Assembly (NCBI GenBank): GCA_019057775.1
Contig: JAHLWT010000151.1
Location: 1-9,797, forward strand
From: Promethearchaeota archaeon
GTDB lineage: Archaea; Asgardarchaeota; Lokiarchaeia; Sigynarchaeales; SOKP01
Direction: 5' to 3'
DNA length: 9,797 nucleotides
Shown: piece by piece, positions 1,953 through 9,441 of the stretch
Position numbering within the stretch: the stretch's first letter is position 1
Layout of the letters: the number at the start of each line of letters is the position of its first letter
Translations under genes and position numbers: made by a program
The notes under the pieces: generated by a model
What the model saw: the letters and a program-made list of their open reading frames with translations, nothing else
The model's database searches: none
What the model was told of the DNA's origin: nothing

Positions 1953-2693
1953 CTAATCATTACTCATAAGTCTTTCCCAACAGGCGTCACAAGGTTGTTC
2001 GCTCCGTCTACCTGCAAAGGCATAGGGAACCCCGCAGCTCTCACAGGTAAATATATAAACTGGTTCGTGACAGAAAAAACATTTTGTTTCATTACTCCCA
2101 CATGGTTCATACAAAACTGTTTCATTCCAACAATATGGACATTCTAATTTCTGGTACAATAAGGAATCCTTACCTGCAGGGATTACATCATTCATCTTCT
2201 CAATCGCCATCTTCATCCTTTCATCGTAAGATACAATAATCTCCTCAATTTCCTTCCATTCTGATTCACCAACATATTCTTTCAAATCTATGTTTAATTT
2301 CTCCATAGAAAATTTAAAAATGAATTTAAGAGACTCACCTAACATATCCTCGGCAGTTTTTTTATTCAAAGTTACACTTTTATGCTCAATTCTATTTCTA
2401 TATCCTTGCAGGTTCTTTAATGCGATACACTCGGTGCCCAACTTTATGAGTTTAAGGTTCTCTAAACGTACCACTAAAACATCAAATCCAACCGTGTGTG
2501 CATCTTCCCTTACGGGTTTATCTATATTCTTATAAATTAGAATCGGATGTATCCTATATATAGATTCTTTTAATAGTAATTCAATGCCGTGAAAAATATG
2601 AAGAATGGCATACTTGTAATCTGATTTTACAAAATGTTCTATGCCATGTTTTATGGAATCTATACCATTTTCTACCAAACTAAATCTTAACAT
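1953..2693 (-). CDS. HEPN-like protein with C-terminal zinc ribbons (candidate RNase)
   Basis: The N-terminal 165 residues are helical and resemble HEPN domains: an opening helix (GIDSIKHGIEHF), a second of the form YAILHIFHGIELLLKES, and R99-N100-R-I-E-H104, which matches the Rx4-6H motif (usually R followed by a polar residue) that forms the RNase active site in HEPN toxins and effectors. The C-terminus has four CxxC pairs (C185/C188, C205/C208, C217/C220, C235/C238) plus C198, enough for two zinc ribbons. Its ATG lies inside the end of a 41-aa EVE-like ORF (overlap ATGTTAA), and the nearest GGAG is 13 bases away, so translation probably depends on coupling to that ORF. No MNT-type antitoxin gene is adjacent. 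RNase activity is inferred from one motif; a non-catalytic binding role remains possible. Confidence 0.7.
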   Translation of the reverse strand: MLRFSLVENGIDSIKHGIEHFVKSDYKYAILHIFHGIELLLKESIYRIHPILIYKNIDKPVREDAHTVGFDVLVVRLENLKLIKLGTECIALKNLQGYRNRIEHKSVTLNKKTAEDMLGESLKFIFKFSMEKLNIDLKEYVGESEWKEIEEIIVSYDERMKMAIEKMNDVIPAGKDSLLYQKLECPYCWNETVLYEPCGSNETKCFFCHEPVYIFTCESCGVPYAFAGRRSEQPCDACWERLMSND

Positions 2694-2838: not shown

Positions 2839-2861
2839 GAACAAATGTTCATGTGTCATGA
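2839..2861. repeat. Two overlapping palindromes downstream of the promoter
   Basis: GAACA-aa-TGTTC (2839-2850) and TCATG-tgt-CATGA (2849-2861) are perfect inverted repeats sharing two bases. They begin about eight bases past the -10 box at 2869-2874 and end before the ribosome site of the 41-aa ORF. That position suits a repressor operator for the EVE/HEPN unit; small RNA hairpins in the leader are an alternative reading. Confidence 0.4.
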
Positions 2862-2868
2862 GCAGAAA

Positions 2869-2898
2869 ATTATAATCTTTTGTATTTTTATTTCTGAA
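2869..2898 (-). promoter_or_regulatory. Promoter for the EVE-leader/HEPN unit
   Basis: A consensus -10 TATAAT (2874-2869) lies 18 bases downstream of TTCAGA (2898-2893), a 4/6 match to TTGACA. Transcription would start near 2862, 50 bases before the 41-aa ORF. It sits in the only gap between the nuclease operon and the HEPN gene, so the two blocks are probably separately transcribed, although no terminator is visible between them. Confidence 0.5.
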
Positions 2899-2930
2899 TT
2901 TAAAACTTACAAAAGGATTAAATTTGGATT

Positions 2931-3461
2931 TCATGTGGTACGTTTGGCGATTTTGTTCTTTAAATACCTACAAAATTTACTAAAAGAAAATAAGTTAGGG
3001 TCATTTGCTGGAATGGACCTATATTTTTCCATAGTTCCCCTAATTATGGGATGAATTATGGCGTACTTGTCTTTGATTCCTGGACCGAGCTTTACTGCAC
3101 GCATAAGGTCGTTTTCGGATTCAAGAATATGGACTACCCAAATTTCTTTTTCTGGGTGATTTTCAGAATAAGCAAACTTATCCCACCTAATCCACAAGTC
3201 AGCTGCTTCAGACAAGGGTTTGTCAGGCCCTGTTACCTCAACATAAATCCCTGTGGTTCGCGTATAGTATAGAATTTCAAGGTCAGGTTCGCCTTTTTCT
3301 TCAGGACTTTCCTCAACATATTCCGTTGAACGGGACAAAAATCCATATTCTACTGCCTTAATCCCTTTTGATTTGAACGCATAGATAACTTTATCGACTC
3401 GCCTAACAGCATTTTTCCAGGAGTGACCGTATTTCTTCTTCCAAAATTCTTTATCTTTCAT
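2931..3461 (-). CDS. PD-(D/E)XK-like protein with degenerate active site
   Basis: This 176-residue protein is the last gene of the methyltransferase/nuclease operon. Its core reads GEPD60 followed by a strand and GIYVEVTGPDK (E75-V76-T77), the spacing of a PD-(D/E)XK nuclease with Thr where the catalytic Lys normally sits. A following helix (WIRWDKFAY) offers K95 as a possible migrated lysine, an arrangement known in some restriction enzymes. A later strand, EIWVVHILES, completes a typical core. The start ATG is one base after the preceding stop (TGATATG), so translation is coupled. It could be the second half of a heterodimeric nuclease with the gene just upstream, each protein cutting one strand, or a non-catalytic partner. 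No family was recognised beyond the fold; the nuclease assignment is moderate. Confidence 0.55.
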   Translation of the reverse strand: MKDKEFWKKKYGHSWKNAVRRVDKVIYAFKSKGIKAVEYGFLSRSTEYVEESPEEKGEPDLEILYYTRTTGIYVEVTGPDKPLSEAADLWIRWDKFAYSENHPEKEIWVVHILESENDLMRAVKLGPGIKDKYAIIHPIIRGTMEKYRSIPANDPNLFSFSKFCRYLKNKIAKRTT

Positions 3462-3462
3462 A

Positions 3463-3945
3463 TCACAACTTCGGTATAAGGCTACTGTAATCTATTGATT
3501 TTCTCCTATTATCCCATTTACAAATTCTCATCATTCGTTCTCTCTTTCTTCCATATACAAGAAGGTCTTCCCTTTTTAGAACTTTAAACAGATATTCAAG
3601 GCTTCCTAACCCTGCTGATGAAACCAGGAAGGATTCAATAGGGCTAACTAATTGTGTATAACCCCACAACTGGCCCAAATCAGCAAGGGTCAACGGTTTG
3701 TCCTTTACTTCCAAAAATACTAATTCGACATCGCCACTTTTTCTTAATACCCCGACAATATCTACACGTATTGATAACCCAATGGCTTCCCTTATCTCAA
3801 TGCCAATGCTTTTAAGATAAGAATCCAAGGGTTGTCTTGACGTCTTATGCGTCGTAACTACAGAATAACCCTCGTATTTTTCCTCAAGATATTTTCTGCA
3901 CCATGTCTCGATCTCCGGATACAGCGATTTTTCTTCCCTGCTCAT
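3463..3945 (-). CDS. PD-(D/E)XK nuclease, candidate restriction subunit
   Basis: A small nuclease-like protein (160 aa) with a complete active-site signature: an acidic helix near the N-terminus (E11 in LYPEIETW), D62 in RVDIVGVL, E79-V-K81 in VFLEVKDKP, and Q92 in the helix DLGQLWGYTQL. That layout is typical of stand-alone PD-(D/E)XK domains. I chose the ATG at 3945 because GGGAG lies eight bases upstream and it follows the previous stop by one base (TGATATG). The frame extends to 3996, but that would overlap the upstream gene by 50 bases. It has no obvious DNA-recognition domain, so specificity is probably supplied by a partner, with the LAGLIDADG-like neighbour the natural candidate. The C-terminal 30 residues are strongly basic (YGRKRERMMR), which may help DNA contact. 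Confidence 0.75.
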   Translation of the reverse strand: MSREEKSLYPEIETWCRKYLEEKYEGYSVVTTHKTSRQPLDSYLKSIGIEIREAIGLSIRVDIVGVLRKSGDVELVFLEVKDKPLTLADLGQLWGYTQLVSPIESFLVSSAGLGSLEYLFKVLKREDLLVYGRKRERMMRICKWDNRRKSIDYSSLIPKL

Positions 3946-3946
3946 A

Positions 3947-4900
3947 TCATTTTCTCCCATAACCAAGCGCGTCACAGATTTCCTTCCAAGAATCAAAATG
4001 CCTACCTCTTATCACTTGTGGAATTTTATCGCTATGCTCCATAGGGTGTGCCGGTTTAGGTTTATGTACTTGTCTAGTTTCCCAGTAGTATTTATGATGT
4101 GCAGTTTCAATATGTCCCAACATACGGCCAAAGTTTTCTTTATGATATTCAGAACGAGTACTATTAATTTTGTGTCTTAAAACCTTGTCCCACTCAATTC
4201 TGTTTGCTGCGACCAACTTTCTCAACGCTTCCATTTTGTGAACTATTCTAAAACCCACTTTCTCAAACTCATCTGCAAATATTTTTATCTGATGTTCTCT
4301 AAACCACGCGTTTTGCTTTCCACTGTTATAATCTTTAAGCTGGGGGTCCCTCATATTTGGATGTCCCCAATCAATTGTGTGTACAGGAACATCCAGATCA
4401 AAAAGCAAATTGCCTATGTCCACCACCAAATACCAGTTTACAGGAATCTCTATGTATACCCTATTGTTGTAAGCAATGCCATAGGCAACATTGCTGCCTC
4501 TAATATGGGCAGTTACGTCTGCAAGTCCAATCATGAACTCTCTCTTTATATCAAAAGGAGAATCAAAAATTTCTCTAGGTATCCGAAAATCCTTGCAGGA
4601 ACTGAGTCCTTGAAAATGTCTGTTCATCTCTCTGGTTAGAAAATCCTCATTGTTTTTGGTGAATTTTATTACTGTTTTCTTTTGAATTTGAGTAGATGAT
4701 ATTCTCGTTCCTATGAGCGGCTCAAGATTGTTTCTTATATCATCGAGACTTGCTTTGACAGAAAGCTTCGCATTCATTCCTTCACTAATTAAGTTCTTAT
4801 GCGGGATGTCGATTATAGTATCCGTTTGAGAATTGCCTCTAAGGATGGTTCCTTTTCCAGTTATCATCCCAAGCAAATAAGCCAATTCTGCATTAATCAT
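3947..4900 (-). CDS. Degenerate LAGLIDADG-like protein in a restriction operon
   Basis: This has the double-motif layout of monomeric LAGLIDADG homing endonucleases. Motif 1 is LAYLLGMITGKGTI at residues 6-19 and motif 2 is FMIGLADVTAHI at 122-133, preceded by RIPREIFDSP, a phrase usual just before the second motif. The residue that should be the catalytic Asp is K16 in motif 1 and T130 in motif 2, so metal-dependent cleavage is unlikely; D128 keeps the earlier Asp of motif 2. Residues 199-219 (WFREHQIKIFADEF, then GF) match the end of the second half-domain. An extra C-terminal 90 residues are basic and His-rich. It starts one base after the methyltransferase stop (TGAAATG) with AAGGA upstream. 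The inferred role is DNA recognition for the two nucleases encoded next. It is not inside an intron or intein here, which argues against selfish homing. Confidence 0.65.
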   Translation of the reverse strand: MINAELAYLLGMITGKGTILRGNSQTDTIIDIPHKNLISEGMNAKLSVKASLDDIRNNLEPLIGTRISSTQIQKKTVIKFTKNNEDFLTREMNRHFQGLSSCKDFRIPREIFDSPFDIKREFMIGLADVTAHIRGSNVAYGIAYNNRVYIEIPVNWYLVVDIGNLLFDLDVPVHTIDWGHPNMRDPQLKDYNSGKQNAWFREHQIKIFADEFEKVGFRIVHKMEALRKLVAANRIEWDKVLRHKINSTRSEYHKENFGRMLGHIETAHHKYYWETRQVHKPKPAHPMEHSDKIPQVIRGRHFDSWKEICDALGYGRK

Positions 4901-4901
4901 T

Positions 4902-5717
4902 TCATTTATCCTTTTTCTTAAATATTAAAATGTATTCATGAACCTTGTTTACCCTGAAGATGTAAGGGTAACCTAATGGTCTCATGTTATTGTATTCATG
5001 TTGCCTGTCCCATATCATTATGTCCTCAAACGCAAACCCGATTTCCTTCATTTTCTTAGCCATGTCTGAATGAAAATGATAGAATCTGTCTTTTTTTCTT
5101 ATATCCATAAGGATTATTACACAGTGTCCATTTACTCTCAGAACATCGTATACCTTTGAAAAAATCTCTTTCAACTCATCCAAAAATTCGTCATAATCTC
5201 TTATATTCCCAAGGTCAATCTTTGAATCACTATATTTTGCTATTTCCTTTCTGTCTGCAGTTCTTTTCATACTTAATATGTCCCAATAAGGAGGTGAAGT
5301 CAAACACAAATCCACACTCTCGGGTTTAACATAAGTCAACAAGAGTCTAGAATCCTTGTTATATACATCTGGTTTTAGTAAGCATTTTTCTTTACCTAAT
5401 TCTTTCCTGACTTGTTTTAGTCTTTTGCGTGCAACCGAAGCATATTCTTTTGACAATTCAAAACCTATCCCTTTCCTTCCCTTTGTATATGCGGCAAGAA
5501 CTGTACTACCAATGCCCATAAACGGGTCAAGAACTAATCCTTTTCTCATAGTAAATATGTCTATCACTCTTGATGCCAATTGTACGGGGAACATTGCTGG
5601 ATGTTTTAATTTCTTCTCGTCATTAGTCTTTCTTATGTCACGCCAAATACTGAAAGAATATTGCAACCATTCCTTTCCAGTTAACTCATTATACCTATTC
5701 GCTTTTTTCCTTACCAT
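4902..5717 (-). CDS. DNA methyltransferase, N4-cytosine/N6-adenine type (SPPYW)
   Basis: Amino-methyltransferase transferring a methyl group from S-adenosylmethionine to DNA. KHPAMFP (38-44) and VLDPFMGIGST (62-72) form the cofactor site, followed by GRKGIGFE. The catalytic motif IV is LTSPPYWD (139-146), a spelling commoner in N4-cytosine enzymes, though N6-adenine is possible. The C-terminus, YPYIFRVNKVHEYILIFKK, matches late motifs of this family. In beta-class enzymes motif IV precedes motif I; here motif I comes first, so the order is permuted. The recognition part must lie in the roughly 80 residues after motif IV, which is short. Its ATG overlaps the upstream methyltransferase stop (ATGGTAA), so the two are translationally coupled. 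It probably protects the second strand or second site type of the same recognition sequence. Confidence 0.88.
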   Translation of the reverse strand: MVRKKANRYNELTGKEWLQYSFSIWRDIRKTNDEKKLKHPAMFPVQLASRVIDIFTMRKGLVLDPFMGIGSTVLAAYTKGRKGIGFELSKEYASVARKRLKQVRKELGKEKCLLKPDVYNKDSRLLLTYVKPESVDLCLTSPPYWDILSMKRTADRKEIAKYSDSKIDLGNIRDYDEFLDELKEIFSKVYDVLRVNGHCVIILMDIRKKDRFYHFHSDMAKKMKEIGFAFEDIMIWDRQHEYNNMRPLGYPYIFRVNKVHEYILIFKKKDK

Positions 5718-7408
5718 ACGCTTCTCTTAGAAAGCATCTTTGAAACTGCTTTCTCTACAAGCTTGATTTCTTTCTTGTTTAAGGAATATATGTCATACAC
5801 TAACACATCTATATCCCTATTTTTCTCTTTTTTCAACTCAACTTTGTCGTCCACTATAATAGAATCAGCAATTTTTATCAATTGCCTAAATCTTGTTCTA
5901 TCTGGATTGTCCACTATAGGAACTAACCCTATGTATGATTTGTCCAAATGCATCGTGAGTCTTGACTTGTCAAAAACGCCATACATCAGATGAAAATTTA
6001 TCAATTTTGAATTTAAGAGCGCCAGAATGTACTTGCCTTTTTCATTGTCAGAAACGAGTATATTTGTTACGGTATCAAGCGTTAACAATTTCCTATCGTC
6101 ATATGCAGCTATCACCCCTGATTCTGATGAAAATATATTTTGCAAAACGACTTTTTTATTCTTTAAACTATTGACTTTTGATTTACCTTGCTTTTCGAGT
6201 AATTTTCTATCCAGCGCATATGGATTTTTTATTGCAAATTTGGTTATATTTTTGCCCCTGATTACTTCTATGTCTTTATTATCAGCATTCTTTACCTTAA
6301 TCTGATTGCCGCCTATTGGCAATCCTCTGAAAATCCTTCCGTCAACAAATCTATCCAGTTTTGTACCGATCTTAGAAATTTTGTCAACTAACTTATAATA
6401 TTCCCTGTCCCCAAAGGTCAAGAACCTATTTAAGCAGGAAAACTTACTTTGTTCTATCATTACATAAGGCTGCTTTGAAAGGCCTTTGTCTTTATAATCA
6501 AATACGGATATTTTCACTCTATTTTTAAAAGCAGGGGTTTTCTTTTTAATAATTAATATAATCTGTTCACCTCTAACGTTCTTAAATTTTGAACCAAGGT
6601 CAAAAATCTGTAGCAATTCTGTATTCTGAATCAGATATCTTCTAAGATTAATATATGAATCAACATAAAGAATTGATTTCGGAAGCAGAAATGCCAATAC
6701 GCCTTCTTTCTTTAGTAACTCTAGAGACCTTGCTATCATCAATGTCGCAGCATTTACAGGCCCGTGAATAACTTTTGAATAGATAGACTCTAATGGGTCA
6801 AAATCTTTGTGTCTACGTAGGGTAACATATGGTGGATTTCCTACGATGAAATCAAATCCACTTTCTTTCATCACATTGTGAAATTCTGAATACCAATCAA
6901 AACCCCGCCTATCAATCTCATTCTTCGAAACTAGACTGTTTCCTGCTTTGATGTTTTTCTTTATCACGCTGATATAATCGTCATTAAACCCTGATTTCAT
7001 GTATAGGCAAGCACGAGTCATCTTTGCAGCATTGCTATTTATATCAACGCCAAAGATATTGTTCAAAAATCTCAGCCCAAATTTTTCCTTAAATACATCA
7101 AATACTGTTAGAAGAAATGACCCACATCCACACGCTGGATCTAATATCTTTGAATCTTTTGTTATATTAAGCTGAGAAAGCATATATTCAACTATTGCTT
7201 TGGGTGTGTAATATTGGCCCTTATCTTTTCTTTCAATTTGAGCAAGAGAACGCTCAAAAAATTCTCCCATTAACTCGGGTGAATGCCCCTTTTTAAACGA
7301 CTCGATAAATAGCTTTTCAACATCTTTATCATGAGTGCTAAGCAAGTCATCAAATACGATATGAATCTTGTCCAACATTCTTTTTTCAAAAATAGATAAA
7401 CCTTTCAT
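5711..7408 (-). CDS. N6-adenine DNA methyltransferase, TaqI/Eco57I-like
   Basis: First gene of the operon. A helical N-terminus leads to KGQYYTP (64-70), the cofactor-site Asp-Pro motif ILDPACGCGSFL (89-100), the acidic GVDIN (121-125) and catalytic FIVGNPPYV (188-196), the signature of N6-adenine enzymes. Residues about 335-500 look like a TaqI-type target-recognition domain (IRGKNITKF, LALLNSKLINF), and the end DIDVLVYDIYSL is the usual C-terminus of Eco57I-like proteins. No nuclease domain is fused at either end, unlike type IIG enzymes, so restriction must come from other genes, and the downstream ones fit. I prefer the ATG at 7408, with AGAGG ten bases upstream; a TTG at 7411, seven bases from that site, is the alternative. 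It methylates adenine in the site defined by its recognition domain, which cannot be read by eye. Confidence 0.92.
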   Translation of the reverse strand: MKGLSIFEKRMLDKIHIVFDDLLSTHDKDVEKLFIESFKKGHSPELMGEFFERSLAQIERKDKGQYYTPKAIVEYMLSQLNITKDSKILDPACGCGSFLLTVFDVFKEKFGLRFLNNIFGVDINSNAAKMTRACLYMKSGFNDDYISVIKKNIKAGNSLVSKNEIDRRGFDWYSEFHNVMKESGFDFIVGNPPYVTLRRHKDFDPLESIYSKVIHGPVNAATLMIARSLELLKKEGVLAFLLPKSILYVDSYINLRRYLIQNTELLQIFDLGSKFKNVRGEQIILIIKKKTPAFKNRVKISVFDYKDKGLSKQPYVMIEQSKFSCLNRFLTFGDREYYKLVDKISKIGTKLDRFVDGRIFRGLPIGGNQIKVKNADNKDIEVIRGKNITKFAIKNPYALDRKLLEKQGKSKVNSLKNKKVVLQNIFSSESGVIAAYDDRKLLTLDTVTNILVSDNEKGKYILALLNSKLINFHLMYGVFDKSRLTMHLDKSYIGLVPIVDNPDRTRFRQLIKIADSIIVDDKVELKKEKNRDIDVLVYDIYSLNKKEIKLVEKAVSKMLSKRSVW

Positions 7409-7411
7409 CAA

Positions 7412-8113: not shown

Positions 8114-8341
8114 TCACCGGTTTCCCATAGATATGAACGGAAAGGTTGACATTTTTGCTTTTTCTCGCAAAAAGCTTATGTATTTACCTTTTTTGGATTT
8201 TGTGGCCTTTCTATATATTATGTTTGATATTGCTATGTCCTGGATGGTGAGGCCGGTGGAGTCGAAGATTGTGATTTCGTCATTATTGGTCCTTTGATAG
8301 TCAAAACTCCGAATGAAAATCTTTTTACCTTGTTTATCCAT
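8114..8341 (-). CDS. 75-aa hypothetical protein
   Basis: A small soluble-looking protein with a basic, hydrophilic N-terminus (MDKQGKKIFIRSFDYQR), a central IFDSTGLTIQDIAISNIIYRK and a lysine-rich tail. No Cys, no membrane helix and no recognised motif. Its ATG comes two bases after the stop of the membrane-protein gene, and the next gene begins six bases after its own stop. The tight spacing on both sides, more than its sequence, supports a real gene. Function unknown. Confidence 0.55.
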   Translation of the reverse strand: MDKQGKKIFIRSFDYQRTNNDEITIFDSTGLTIQDIAISNIIYRKATKSKKGKYISFLREKAKMSTFPFISMGNR

Positions 8342-8607: not shown

Positions 8608-9441
8608 CTATAATTTTCCAATAACTCCCCCCTTCACCAGGCTGGGGATTTCACGTTGAAGTTCAATGACTTCTACAGGGCAAGTTGGATAATCATTATT
8701 CCAACATACAACATAATCACAGCAGATTTGTTGATGTTTTGGATTTTTCACATGTTCTCGAAATTTTCTTGCATTATACTCGAATTCTATATACTTACGC
8801 GAAAAGGTTTTTCCTTGTTTTTCAATGGCGCAAGCGTCTGGAAAGCCCTGTCGGATGAATTCAATCTTTACAAACTCATGAGTTTTAAGTCTATCCATAA
8901 AATGAGCAAACAAAGCAACAACACCTTGTTCACTAGTTGGAGCATAATTTAGCACGCCTAAATCCATAGGTCGACCTAAATTTTCATCATTCGCTAGCCC
9001 TTTAAATAATTCTTTTTCTGATGGTTTATAAGCACGCAACACTTTTTCAATATTGCGAAAATCTGCGGGCGTAATTTTAACAGATGTTCTATCTTTGAAT
9101 CTTATCGGGATAAACTTCCGTTTTGGAAAAATACTAATTGGTTTTTTAACGAGTTTAACTAATTCTTGGATGGGGATAAAATATGGAGATGGGACCAAGT
9201 ATCTCTTCCGAATTTTCATACAAATATGCGGTCCTTTCCAAGCAGTATCATCAGCCCATTCTTCTTGTTTTCCCACAACCTGAAAAGTCCCAACTACTAC
9301 TGAATCCCGCATTGCATAGTATACGATTTGATCCCCTTGTTTTACCTTAGTAATTTTACCTGCCATTTTTTTTTCTTTTCCAATATAGTCAGGATGCGCT
9401 TGATAAGCAGAAAGACTATGGATAATAAACCAATATTTCAT
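8608..9441 (-). CDS. EVE domain fused to a restriction-endonuclease-like domain
   Basis: Residues about 1-135 read as an EVE (PUA-like) domain: MKYWFIIHS at the first strand, KQGDQIVYYA (34-43), and VVVGTFQVVG (48-57). EVE domains bind modified DNA bases such as 5-methyl- or hydroxymethylcytosine. Residues about 165-265 form a second domain with GFPDACAI (D202), YIEFEY (E219, E221), then CCDYVVCWNND (240-250) and VEVIEL (256-261). The PD...ExE arrangement resembles a PD-(D/E)XK core without the usual Lys, and the CD..VCW phrase is characteristic of a domain I associate with restriction-like proteins. Together they suggest a modification-dependent (type IV) nuclease that cuts phage DNA bearing modified bases. 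The ATG at 9441 has GAGGTGA upstream. Such an enzyme must tolerate the marks laid by the methyltransferases 1-3 kb away. Confidence 0.75.
   Translation of the reverse strand: MKYWFIIHSLSAYQAHPDYIGKEKKMAGKITKVKQGDQIVYYAMRDSVVVGTFQVVGKQEEWADDTAWKGPHICMKIRKRYLVPSPYFIPIQELVKLVKKPISIFPKRKFIPIRFKDRTSVKITPADFRNIEKVLRAYKPSEKELFKGLANDENLGRPMDLGVLNYAPTSEQGVVALFAHFMDRLKTHEFVKIEFIRQGFPDACAIEKQGKTFSRKYIEFEYNARKFREHVKNPKHQQICCDYVVCWNNDYPTCPVEVIELQREIPSLVKGGVIGKL

Follow-up and report, generated by a model that had tools for sequence, protein, structure and literature searches.

The window analysed here, a stretch of 9,797 nucleotides from a Promethearchaeota archaeon (contig JAHLWT010000151.1), holds an operon that consists of a conserved four-gene core and one local extra gene. 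The core encodes two methyltransferases (M1 and M2), a LAGLIDADG protein without catalytic acids (S) and a small PD-(D/E)XK nuclease (R1), and, judging from the sequences, it is likely to form a Type II-like restriction-modification system acting on an asymmetric site, in which S would recognise the DNA, R1 would cut it and M1 and M2 would protect the host. The system is widespread in bacteria and archaea and apparently undescribed; a literature search, outside of which lay most subscription papers and REBASE, revealed no description of such a system or of LAGLIDADG proteins in restriction systems. In the available text of a main review of Type II enzymes LAGLIDADG is not among the named catalytic classes and the word itself does not occur (PMC4081073), and for GmrS, according to the accessible part of the source, LAGLIDADG motifs were once asserted and later denied (PMC4619093).

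All five frames listed in the earlier note were found in place on the minus strand. M1 (5711..7411) encodes a gamma-class N6-adenine-type DNA methyltransferase (NPPY) with a TaqI-like C-terminal recognition domain and overlaps by 7 bases with M2 (4902..5717), which encodes a beta-class methyltransferase with an SPPY motif, probably of N4-cytosine type. These are followed by S (3947..4900), a LAGLIDADG protein in whose two motifs the catalytic acids are replaced and which is the proposed DNA-recognition subunit, R1 (3463..3945), a 160-aa PD-(D/E)XK nuclease and the proposed cleavage subunit, and R2 (2931..3461), a 176-aa protein with the signature PD...EVT and an accessory gene outside the recurrent core; the M2/S, S/R1 and R1/R2 junctions are gaps of 1 base each in the ORFs of the window. 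The start of R1 was taken at 3945, the conserved 160-aa start given by a 160-aa entry in the list of homologues, the mechanical ORF starting at a TTG at 3996. When the five proteins were compared with Pfam, NCBIfam and PADLOC no family match to the hallmarks of Type I systems (the HsdS recognition subunit and the HsdR translocase) was found, and, as in Type II systems, the methyltransferases share an operon with a nuclease whose catalytic motif is intact.

The search for S revealed 426 homologues besides that of the window and 58 other loci, both bacterial and archaeal; plasmids, phages and viral contigs account for two each. The core order is an adenine-type methyltransferase (M1), a cytosine-type methyltransferase (M2), S and R1, and in 57 of the 58 loci R1 immediately follows S; locus L051 lacks R1. 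The operon had previously been described as a unit of five genes, and while a recurrent unit does exist, it has four: R2 was found at none of the 58 related loci, which rules out the five-gene unit. The cassette is carried by Lactiplantibacillus plasmids of 6.5 and 8.8 kb and by phages; accessions for the Lactiplantibacillus plasmid proteins are WP_253735073.1 (methyltransferase), WP_220639322.1 (S) and WP_253735072.1 (R1). Separate searches with R1 and with S matched the same two plasmids and two phages, and the same three out of 384 Omnitrophota genomes when three additional weak matches of S, all inteins, were set aside. The trees of S and R1 correlate with r 0.969 over 51 loci including the window, a value reached in 0 out of 2000 permutations, but both the pairing and the correlation are what is expected of any tight operon.

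Pfam backed both of the methyltransferase classes that had been proposed, M1 matching Eco57I (4.2e-29), N6_Mtase (8.6e-29) and TaqI_C (9.1e-12), with no match to a nuclease domain, and M2 matching N6_N4_Mtase (2.4e-36). The motif NPPY/NPPF is present in 31/31 gamma-class enzymes adjoining S and SPPY in 36/36 beta-class enzymes, the window included in both cases. The product of M2 is probably N4-methylcytosine; its assignment as a cytosine type rests on the SPPY motif because beta-class enzymes can make 6mA, as the available account of M1 of the MhoVII system describes (PMC12898733), and its relatives in the PDB include both N4-cytosine and adenine enzymes.

One adenine-type and one cytosine-type methyltransferase were found together in 49 of the 51 loci with enough upstream sequence (50/52 with the window), the exceptions being L043 and L051, which have a cytosine-type enzyme only and 2.9–3.7 kb of upstream sequence. 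The adenine-type partner is of gamma, EcoRI-like or D12 class and the cytosine-type partner is a beta enzyme with SPPY or a C5 enzyme, in the pairings gamma+beta, gamma+C5, EcoRI-like+C5 and D12+beta. In an Omnitrophota relative, in which S and R1 are 71% and 76% identical to those of the window, a D12 enzyme replaces the gamma methyltransferase. The earlier note had proposed that the two methyltransferases guard the two strands of an asymmetric site, and the occurrence of one enzyme of each type is as predicted; methylation would then block restriction. Searches for the target sequence through relatives of the methyltransferases, in the PDB and on plasmids and phages, gave no usable specificity. 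The M2-like genes examined in Haloferax and Helicobacter are located in other gene contexts, and a search for literature on the methylome of Alkaliflexus retrieved no such paper.

No convincing family was found for S, R1 or R2 in Pfam, NCBIfam or PADLOC (best E 0.07 or weaker), nor did their profiles give any significant match to PDB sequences. A profile comparison of S with LAGLIDADG regions of inteins using hhalign resulted in a probability of 98.3 (E 2.4e-14) over 190 columns with both motifs aligned, compared with 0.07–0.4% for the controls, and such homology over both motifs places S within the LAGLIDADG superfamily. The set consisted of 12 regions from 33 loci, three of these loci having been retrieved by means of the S profile, and because the selection pattern required D or E at the catalytic positions it is no evidence for an acid there; D or E does occupy the catalytic positions in the three inteins examined in full. 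An internal repeat in S is weak only (E 0.0058, 6%) with a plausible register.

In active LAGLIDADG homing endonucleases position 8 of either motif is acidic. Among 178 S sequences the corresponding position is occupied in motif 1 by K (125), N (39), R (6), H (3) or a gap (5) and in motif 2 by T (171), A (5) or a gap (2), so that D or E is found at neither position in any of them; in the window the acids are replaced by K16 and T130. The description of S as a degenerate LAGLIDADG protein thereby holds on both counts, the profile match and the loss of the acids. Conserved features of S are a C-terminal extension (residues about 234–317) and the polar residues R147, Y149 and E151 following motif 2 (95–100%). 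S would be the specificity subunit that recognises DNA. The common descent with homing endonucleases, together with the presence of the cassette on plasmids and phages, could also suggest that S and R1 together are a homing or mobile element inserting itself into methyltransferase operons, with no part in restriction, but there is very little chance of this, given that all 178 S sequences are without catalytic acids and that a methyltransferase lies upstream of the pair in all 55 loci (of 58) having any upstream sequence.

In R1 the motif residues are D62 and E79-x-K81, with Q92 and Y96, and the triad D, E and K that defines PD-(D/E)XK nucleases is kept in 177/177 sequences. The sole PDB match of the R1 profile was EndoMS (E 0.68, not significant), and comparison with the NucS_C profile then gave moderate support (probability 51, E 1.5e-4) across D..ExK..QL..Y. 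R1 can accordingly be retained as the PD-(D/E)XK nuclease it had been taken for. The self-sufficient restriction enzyme PvuII has 157 aa, and R1, being no smaller than such enzymes, may not need S. It could be imagined that R1 alone recognises and cuts the site and that S is a transcriptional controller similar to WhiA or a C-protein, WhiA being a precedent for a dead LAGLIDADG protein turned regulator (PMC3781837, as far as the accessible text goes). This is unlikely, since S showed no match to the WhiA family in Pfam or NCBIfam at E up to 1, the polar residues after motif 2 are conserved, and the pairing of an adenine-type with a cytosine-type methyltransferase implies an asymmetric site, for which a small homodimer is ill-suited. 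In addition, R1 did not turn up without S when plasmids, phages and Omnitrophota were searched, whereas related systems can usually do without a controller.

R2 has ten homologues besides that of the window, and in all 11 sequences T replaces K in the motif PD...EVT, leaving no D...(D/E)xK, though a lysine such as K95 could conceivably be supplied from elsewhere in the protein. Its profile matched neither R1 nor NucS, and R2 was not found in 33 S-bearing genomes or in 384 Omnitrophota genomes, both searched without a positive-control genome known to hold R2. The claims that R2 is a PD-(D/E)XK-like nuclease and that the system contains two nucleases were not supported, and R2 is an optional extra. 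A division of labour like that of Type IIT heterodimers, with R1 cutting one strand and the other left to R2 or an accessory protein, is improbable to a high degree: R2 does start one base after R1 in the window, and two contigs (of lengths 80899 and 2459) seem to hold homologues of both, but the failure to find R2 at the S loci or in the S-bearing genomes searched and the replacement of ExK by EVT stand against it, as does the fact that an accessory family of 113–164 aa is also absent at many of the S loci. Among the 120 of 427 S homologues listed, none has a contig of either length.

In the proposed system of one nuclease and one specificity subunit, S, of intein LAGLIDADG lineage and having lost its catalytic acids and carrying a C-terminal extension, would recognise the unmodified site and recruit R1, probably acting as a dimer, to break the DNA. 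On host DNA, M1-type enzymes would methylate an adenine in one strand, the M2-type enzymes would methylate a cytosine in the opposite strand, and S would thereby be blocked. The suggestion that S targets nucleases to unmethylated sites has lost its second nuclease and is otherwise in keeping with an S that is devoid of catalytic acids and accompanied by a nuclease that looks active; binding of R1 by S, and a target common to the whole family, are what we infer. With some reserve we lean towards a homing endonuclease stripped of catalysis that became a stand-alone specificity subunit loading a generic PD-(D/E)XK nuclease, while the methyltransferases (three classes for m6A, beta or C5 for cytosine) are exchanged and a single asymmetric target is conserved, an architecture absent from the literature searched. 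If true, a LAGLIDADG protein that only recognises DNA and leaves the cutting to a separable nuclease would parallel in nature the meganuclease fusions made by engineering and would illustrate how a selfish homing enzyme can turn into an immune sensor, and the swapping of methyltransferases around a constant S-R1 would be a natural experiment in which restriction specificity is held and protection replaced. One cassette is located on the 6.5-kb plasmid of a cultured Lactiplantibacillus and the system is therefore directly testable.

When compared with known systems, S resembles the dedicated specificity proteins without nuclease activity of Type I and Type IIB systems (HsdS, BcgI, BsaXI) in its proposed role. 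In those systems methylation too is directed by the S subunit, and the nuclease shares its polypeptide with other functions; here M1 brings a TaqI_C domain of its own, R1 is a separate protein and there is no helicase-type core protein. The two different catalytic sites of a Type IIT heterodimer are lacking, S having no catalytic acids and R2 not being found in relatives. Also comparable are split Type IIS/IIT enzymes such as R.BspD6I/BstNBI, for which the available texts give a 604-aa recognition and nicking subunit and a 186-aa catalytic subunit (PMC4081073, PMC6261011); an asymmetric target, here inferred, and a small nuclease relying on a larger recognition subunit, here proposed, would be shared, but the large subunit of BspD6I cuts one strand while S is related to homing endonucleases and has no catalytic acids. 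In MhoVII of Mycoplasma hominis, according to the accessible part of its description, a beta-class and a D12-class methyltransferase each serve one strand of a non-palindromic site, similar to the strand division between different classes proposed here, but both of its marks are 6mA and no LAGLIDADG component is mentioned there (PMC12898733). WhiA/DUF199 is likewise a LAGLIDADG protein domesticated after loss of catalytic residues, in which the DNA-binding surface of the degenerate domain is altered and binding falls to a separate HTH, as far as the available text describes (PMC3781837); unlike this HTH transcription factor, S occurs together with a nuclease and methyltransferases, and it has no match to the WhiA family. 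S is also kin to intein endonucleases (Pfam LAGLIDADG_3), with which both motifs and their surroundings align, but the three inteins examined in full reside inside host proteins and have their acids, while S is free-standing, acid-less and equipped with a conserved extension at its C-terminus.

The five genes at 2931–7411 lie on the minus strand and are spaced by overlaps or 1-base gaps. Pfam identifies M1 (5711–7411) as an N6-adenine-type methyltransferase with a TaqI-like C-terminal recognition domain and M2 (4902–5717) as an N6_N4 methyltransferase, taken here to be of gamma and beta class respectively; S (3947–4900), R1 (3463–3945) and R2 (2931–3461) gave no convincing family match in Pfam, NCBIfam or PADLOC. 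The conserved form of R1 starts at 3945, giving 160 aa, and not at the upstream TTG at 3996. A defence-island neighbour lies just past the downstream end of the operon (1953–2693, minus strand), a protein with matches to PADLOC PDC-S64 (1.7e-27) and DUF3644 (3.8e-7) and cysteine pairs close to the C-terminus. The minus strand also holds an HD and HD_assoc_2 protein with weak dGTPase matches (93–1589) and a 75-aa ORF, perhaps a gene remnant (8114–8341), whose sole match is to the final portion of ornithine cyclodeaminase/mu-crystallin (6e-7). EVE proteins are readers of modified bases, and a protein with a weak EVE domain (8608–9441, minus strand; E 7.4e-4, under the Pfam cut-off) and an uncharacterised C-terminal part may be a modification-dependent partner.

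Homologue searches (E ≤ 1e-3, the window's own proteins left out) gave 426 homologues of S, 434 of R1 and 10 of R2. For the gene order 58 loci carrying S were compared, 52 from a one-genome-per-species scan together with two viral contigs, two plasmids and two phages; these are loci and not independent events, as L031 and L052 are two places on one contig, L055 and L056 have the same protein accessions and S is identical at some of the loci. Most come from metagenome bins, so that single placements may be wrong, and going by their record titles they include Omnitrophota, Patescibacteria, several Bacillota, Endomicrobium kin, Bacteroidales and kin, Anaerolineaceae, Synergistaceae, Gastranaerophilales and one alphaproteobacterium among the bacteria, and Thermoplasmata, Pacearchaeota, Altiarchaeales, Bathyarchaeota and Nitrososphaerales among the archaea, besides further groups.

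At 57 of these loci R1 lies downstream of S in the same orientation. A reverse search with R1 alone returned the same two plasmids and two phages, and a third viral contig, absent from the S listing, proved to carry S as well, with EcoRI-like and C5 methyltransferase genes upstream. Among 384 Omnitrophota genomes S matched six, three of them weakly and to inteins, and R1 was found in three, the same as for S once the intein matches are set aside. The S and R1 trees are correlated (r 0.969, 51 loci including the window) well beyond the highest of 2000 permutations (≤ 0.41). The exception, L051, has the S of lowest identity among the listed loci (31%) and the longest end branch of the S tree (1.67); its region 2847–5544 contains the diverged S and a beta methyltransferase without R1, adjoined by a convergent gene that is HNH-like by eye, and is possibly a decayed or rewired system.

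The earlier note had described a five-gene operon with two small PD-(D/E)XK-like proteins, of which the S-R1 pair and the nuclease character of R1 stand; R2 was not found in the recurrent unit, and its nuclease character is not supported. All 177 sequences keep the R1 triad D62, E79 and K81, and 176, all but a fragment, also have Q92 and Y96. The R1 profile matched 18 NucS sequences from 20 loci (51%, E 1.5e-4; controls < 1%) with the catalytic motifs in register, suggesting a kinship of moderate, not decisive, strength. R2 has a threonine in its PD...EVT motif in 11/11 sequences and its profile matched neither R1 (0.4%) nor NucS (0.7%). It was detected at none of the 58 loci, was not found in the viral contigs, plasmids and phages searched, and gave no match in 33 S-bearing genomes or 384 Omnitrophota genomes, both sets being without an R2-positive control genome. 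R1 and R2 are linked in the window and two further links are suggested by common longest-contig values (80899 and 2459); among 120 listed of 427 S homologues none had these values.

Upstream of S the methyltransferases are gamma and beta (SPPY) at 26 loci and in the window, EcoRI-like and C5, fused or split, at 14, D12 and beta at five, and gamma and C5 at four (in pieces at L045). Four loci, where the sequence ends within 1.1 kb upstream, show a cytosine-type enzyme only, three have no upstream sequence, and L043 and L051 show beta only although 2.9–3.7 kb of upstream sequence is available. One adenine-type and one cytosine-type enzyme are thus paired at 49 of 51 loci with enough upstream sequence (50/52 including the window). 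Pfam names the representatives EcoRI_methylase, C-5 methylase, D12 and N6_N4, and motif IV reads NPPY/F in 31/31 gamma, NPPF in 14/14 EcoRI-like, DPPY in 5/5 D12, SPPY in 36/36 beta and PCQ in 20/21 C5 matches, the miss being the L045 piece. SPPY points to N4-cytosine and N/DPPY to N6-adenine methylation, with exceptions; the beta-class enzyme of MhoVII is described as making 6mA (PMC12898733). The S tree shows at least two changes for each methyltransferase type, and an Omnitrophota genome outside it has D12 in the place of gamma with identities to the window of 71% (S), 76% (R1) and 56% (M2). Since beta enzymes occur with either gamma or D12 partners, gamma enzymes with either beta or C5, and C5 enzymes with either gamma or EcoRI-like ones, the simplest reading would be that all share a single asymmetric target in which an A on one strand and a C on the opposite strand can be methylated.

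Small accessory proteins of about 112–164 aa, mutually similar, are encoded either in the stretch that separates the methyltransferases from S or downstream of R1 (L012, L014, L016, L024–L026, L031, L033, L034, L038, L045, L046, L048–L050, L053, L054, L124, and on the opposite strand at L004); four tested gave no Pfam match above cut-off. The complete cassette is found on Lactiplantibacillus plantarum plasmids of 6.5 kb (L055) and 8.8 kb (L056), with a YafQ-type toxin gene alongside, offering a compact test system.

That S is a degenerate LAGLIDADG protein, as previously suggested, was borne out. The three inteins it matched weakly in Omnitrophota are hosted by a ribonucleotide reductase (Pfam Intein_splicing and LAGLIDADG_3) and, as named by reading the sequence, a gyrase-A-like and a UDP-glucose-dehydrogenase-like protein. 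A set of 33 loci, the three intein loci and 30 others drawn by LAGLIDADG_3, yielded 64 ORFs, of which the S profile matched 10 at E ≤ 1e-3; three of these are the intein loci previously found with that profile, and the best reversed ORF gave E 1.9. Profile-profile comparison with 12 LAGLIDADG regions gave 98.3% (E 2.4e-14) over 190 columns covering both motifs, against 0.07–0.4% for R1, R2 and reversed S. LAGLIDADG_3 domains were seen in 48/60 sampled genomes of the archaeal phylum of genome G005, up to 24 per genome.

The eighth motif position holds the metal-binding acid in active LAGLIDADG enzymes. In 178 S sequences (120 listed homologues and all 58 loci) it is K125/N39/R6/H3 (gap 5) in motif 1 and T171/A5 (gap 2) in motif 2, in agreement with an earlier selection of 110, and because these acids are absent it is very unlikely that S cuts as LAGLIDADG enzymes do. 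Past motif 2, conserved polar residues (R147 100%, Y149 95%, E151 97%) alternate with V148, I150 and I152 (78–79%) in a likely strand, which may be a retained DNA-reading face; the extension past residue 234, which the alignment does not cover, is ≥ 90% conserved at 15/84 positions and is a candidate for docking R1.

S is probably a recognition subunit, which would bind the unmodified asymmetric site and bring R1 as the cutter, methylation of the target bases stopping S. An R1 that recognises its site without S is unlikely, as is cutting by S itself, given the pairing of the methyltransferases and the lost catalytic acids of S. That S is a regulator is possible, with WhiA as a warning precedent in the accessible part of PMC3781837. 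A LAGLIDADG specificity subunit in restriction was not found described in the literature within reach, which left out most subscription papers and REBASE, where an entry may exist, nor in the accessible parts of PMC11997821, PMC4619093, PMC12898733, PMC3781837, PMC4081073 and PMC6261011. The nearest working analogue of a recognising S with R1 is BspD6I, in which the catalytic subunit (186 aa) relies on a larger one (604 aa) that both recognises and nicks (PMC4081073, PMC6261011); in contrast to BspD6I, the recogniser S keeps none of the catalytic acids of its kin and resembles a domesticated homing endonuclease.
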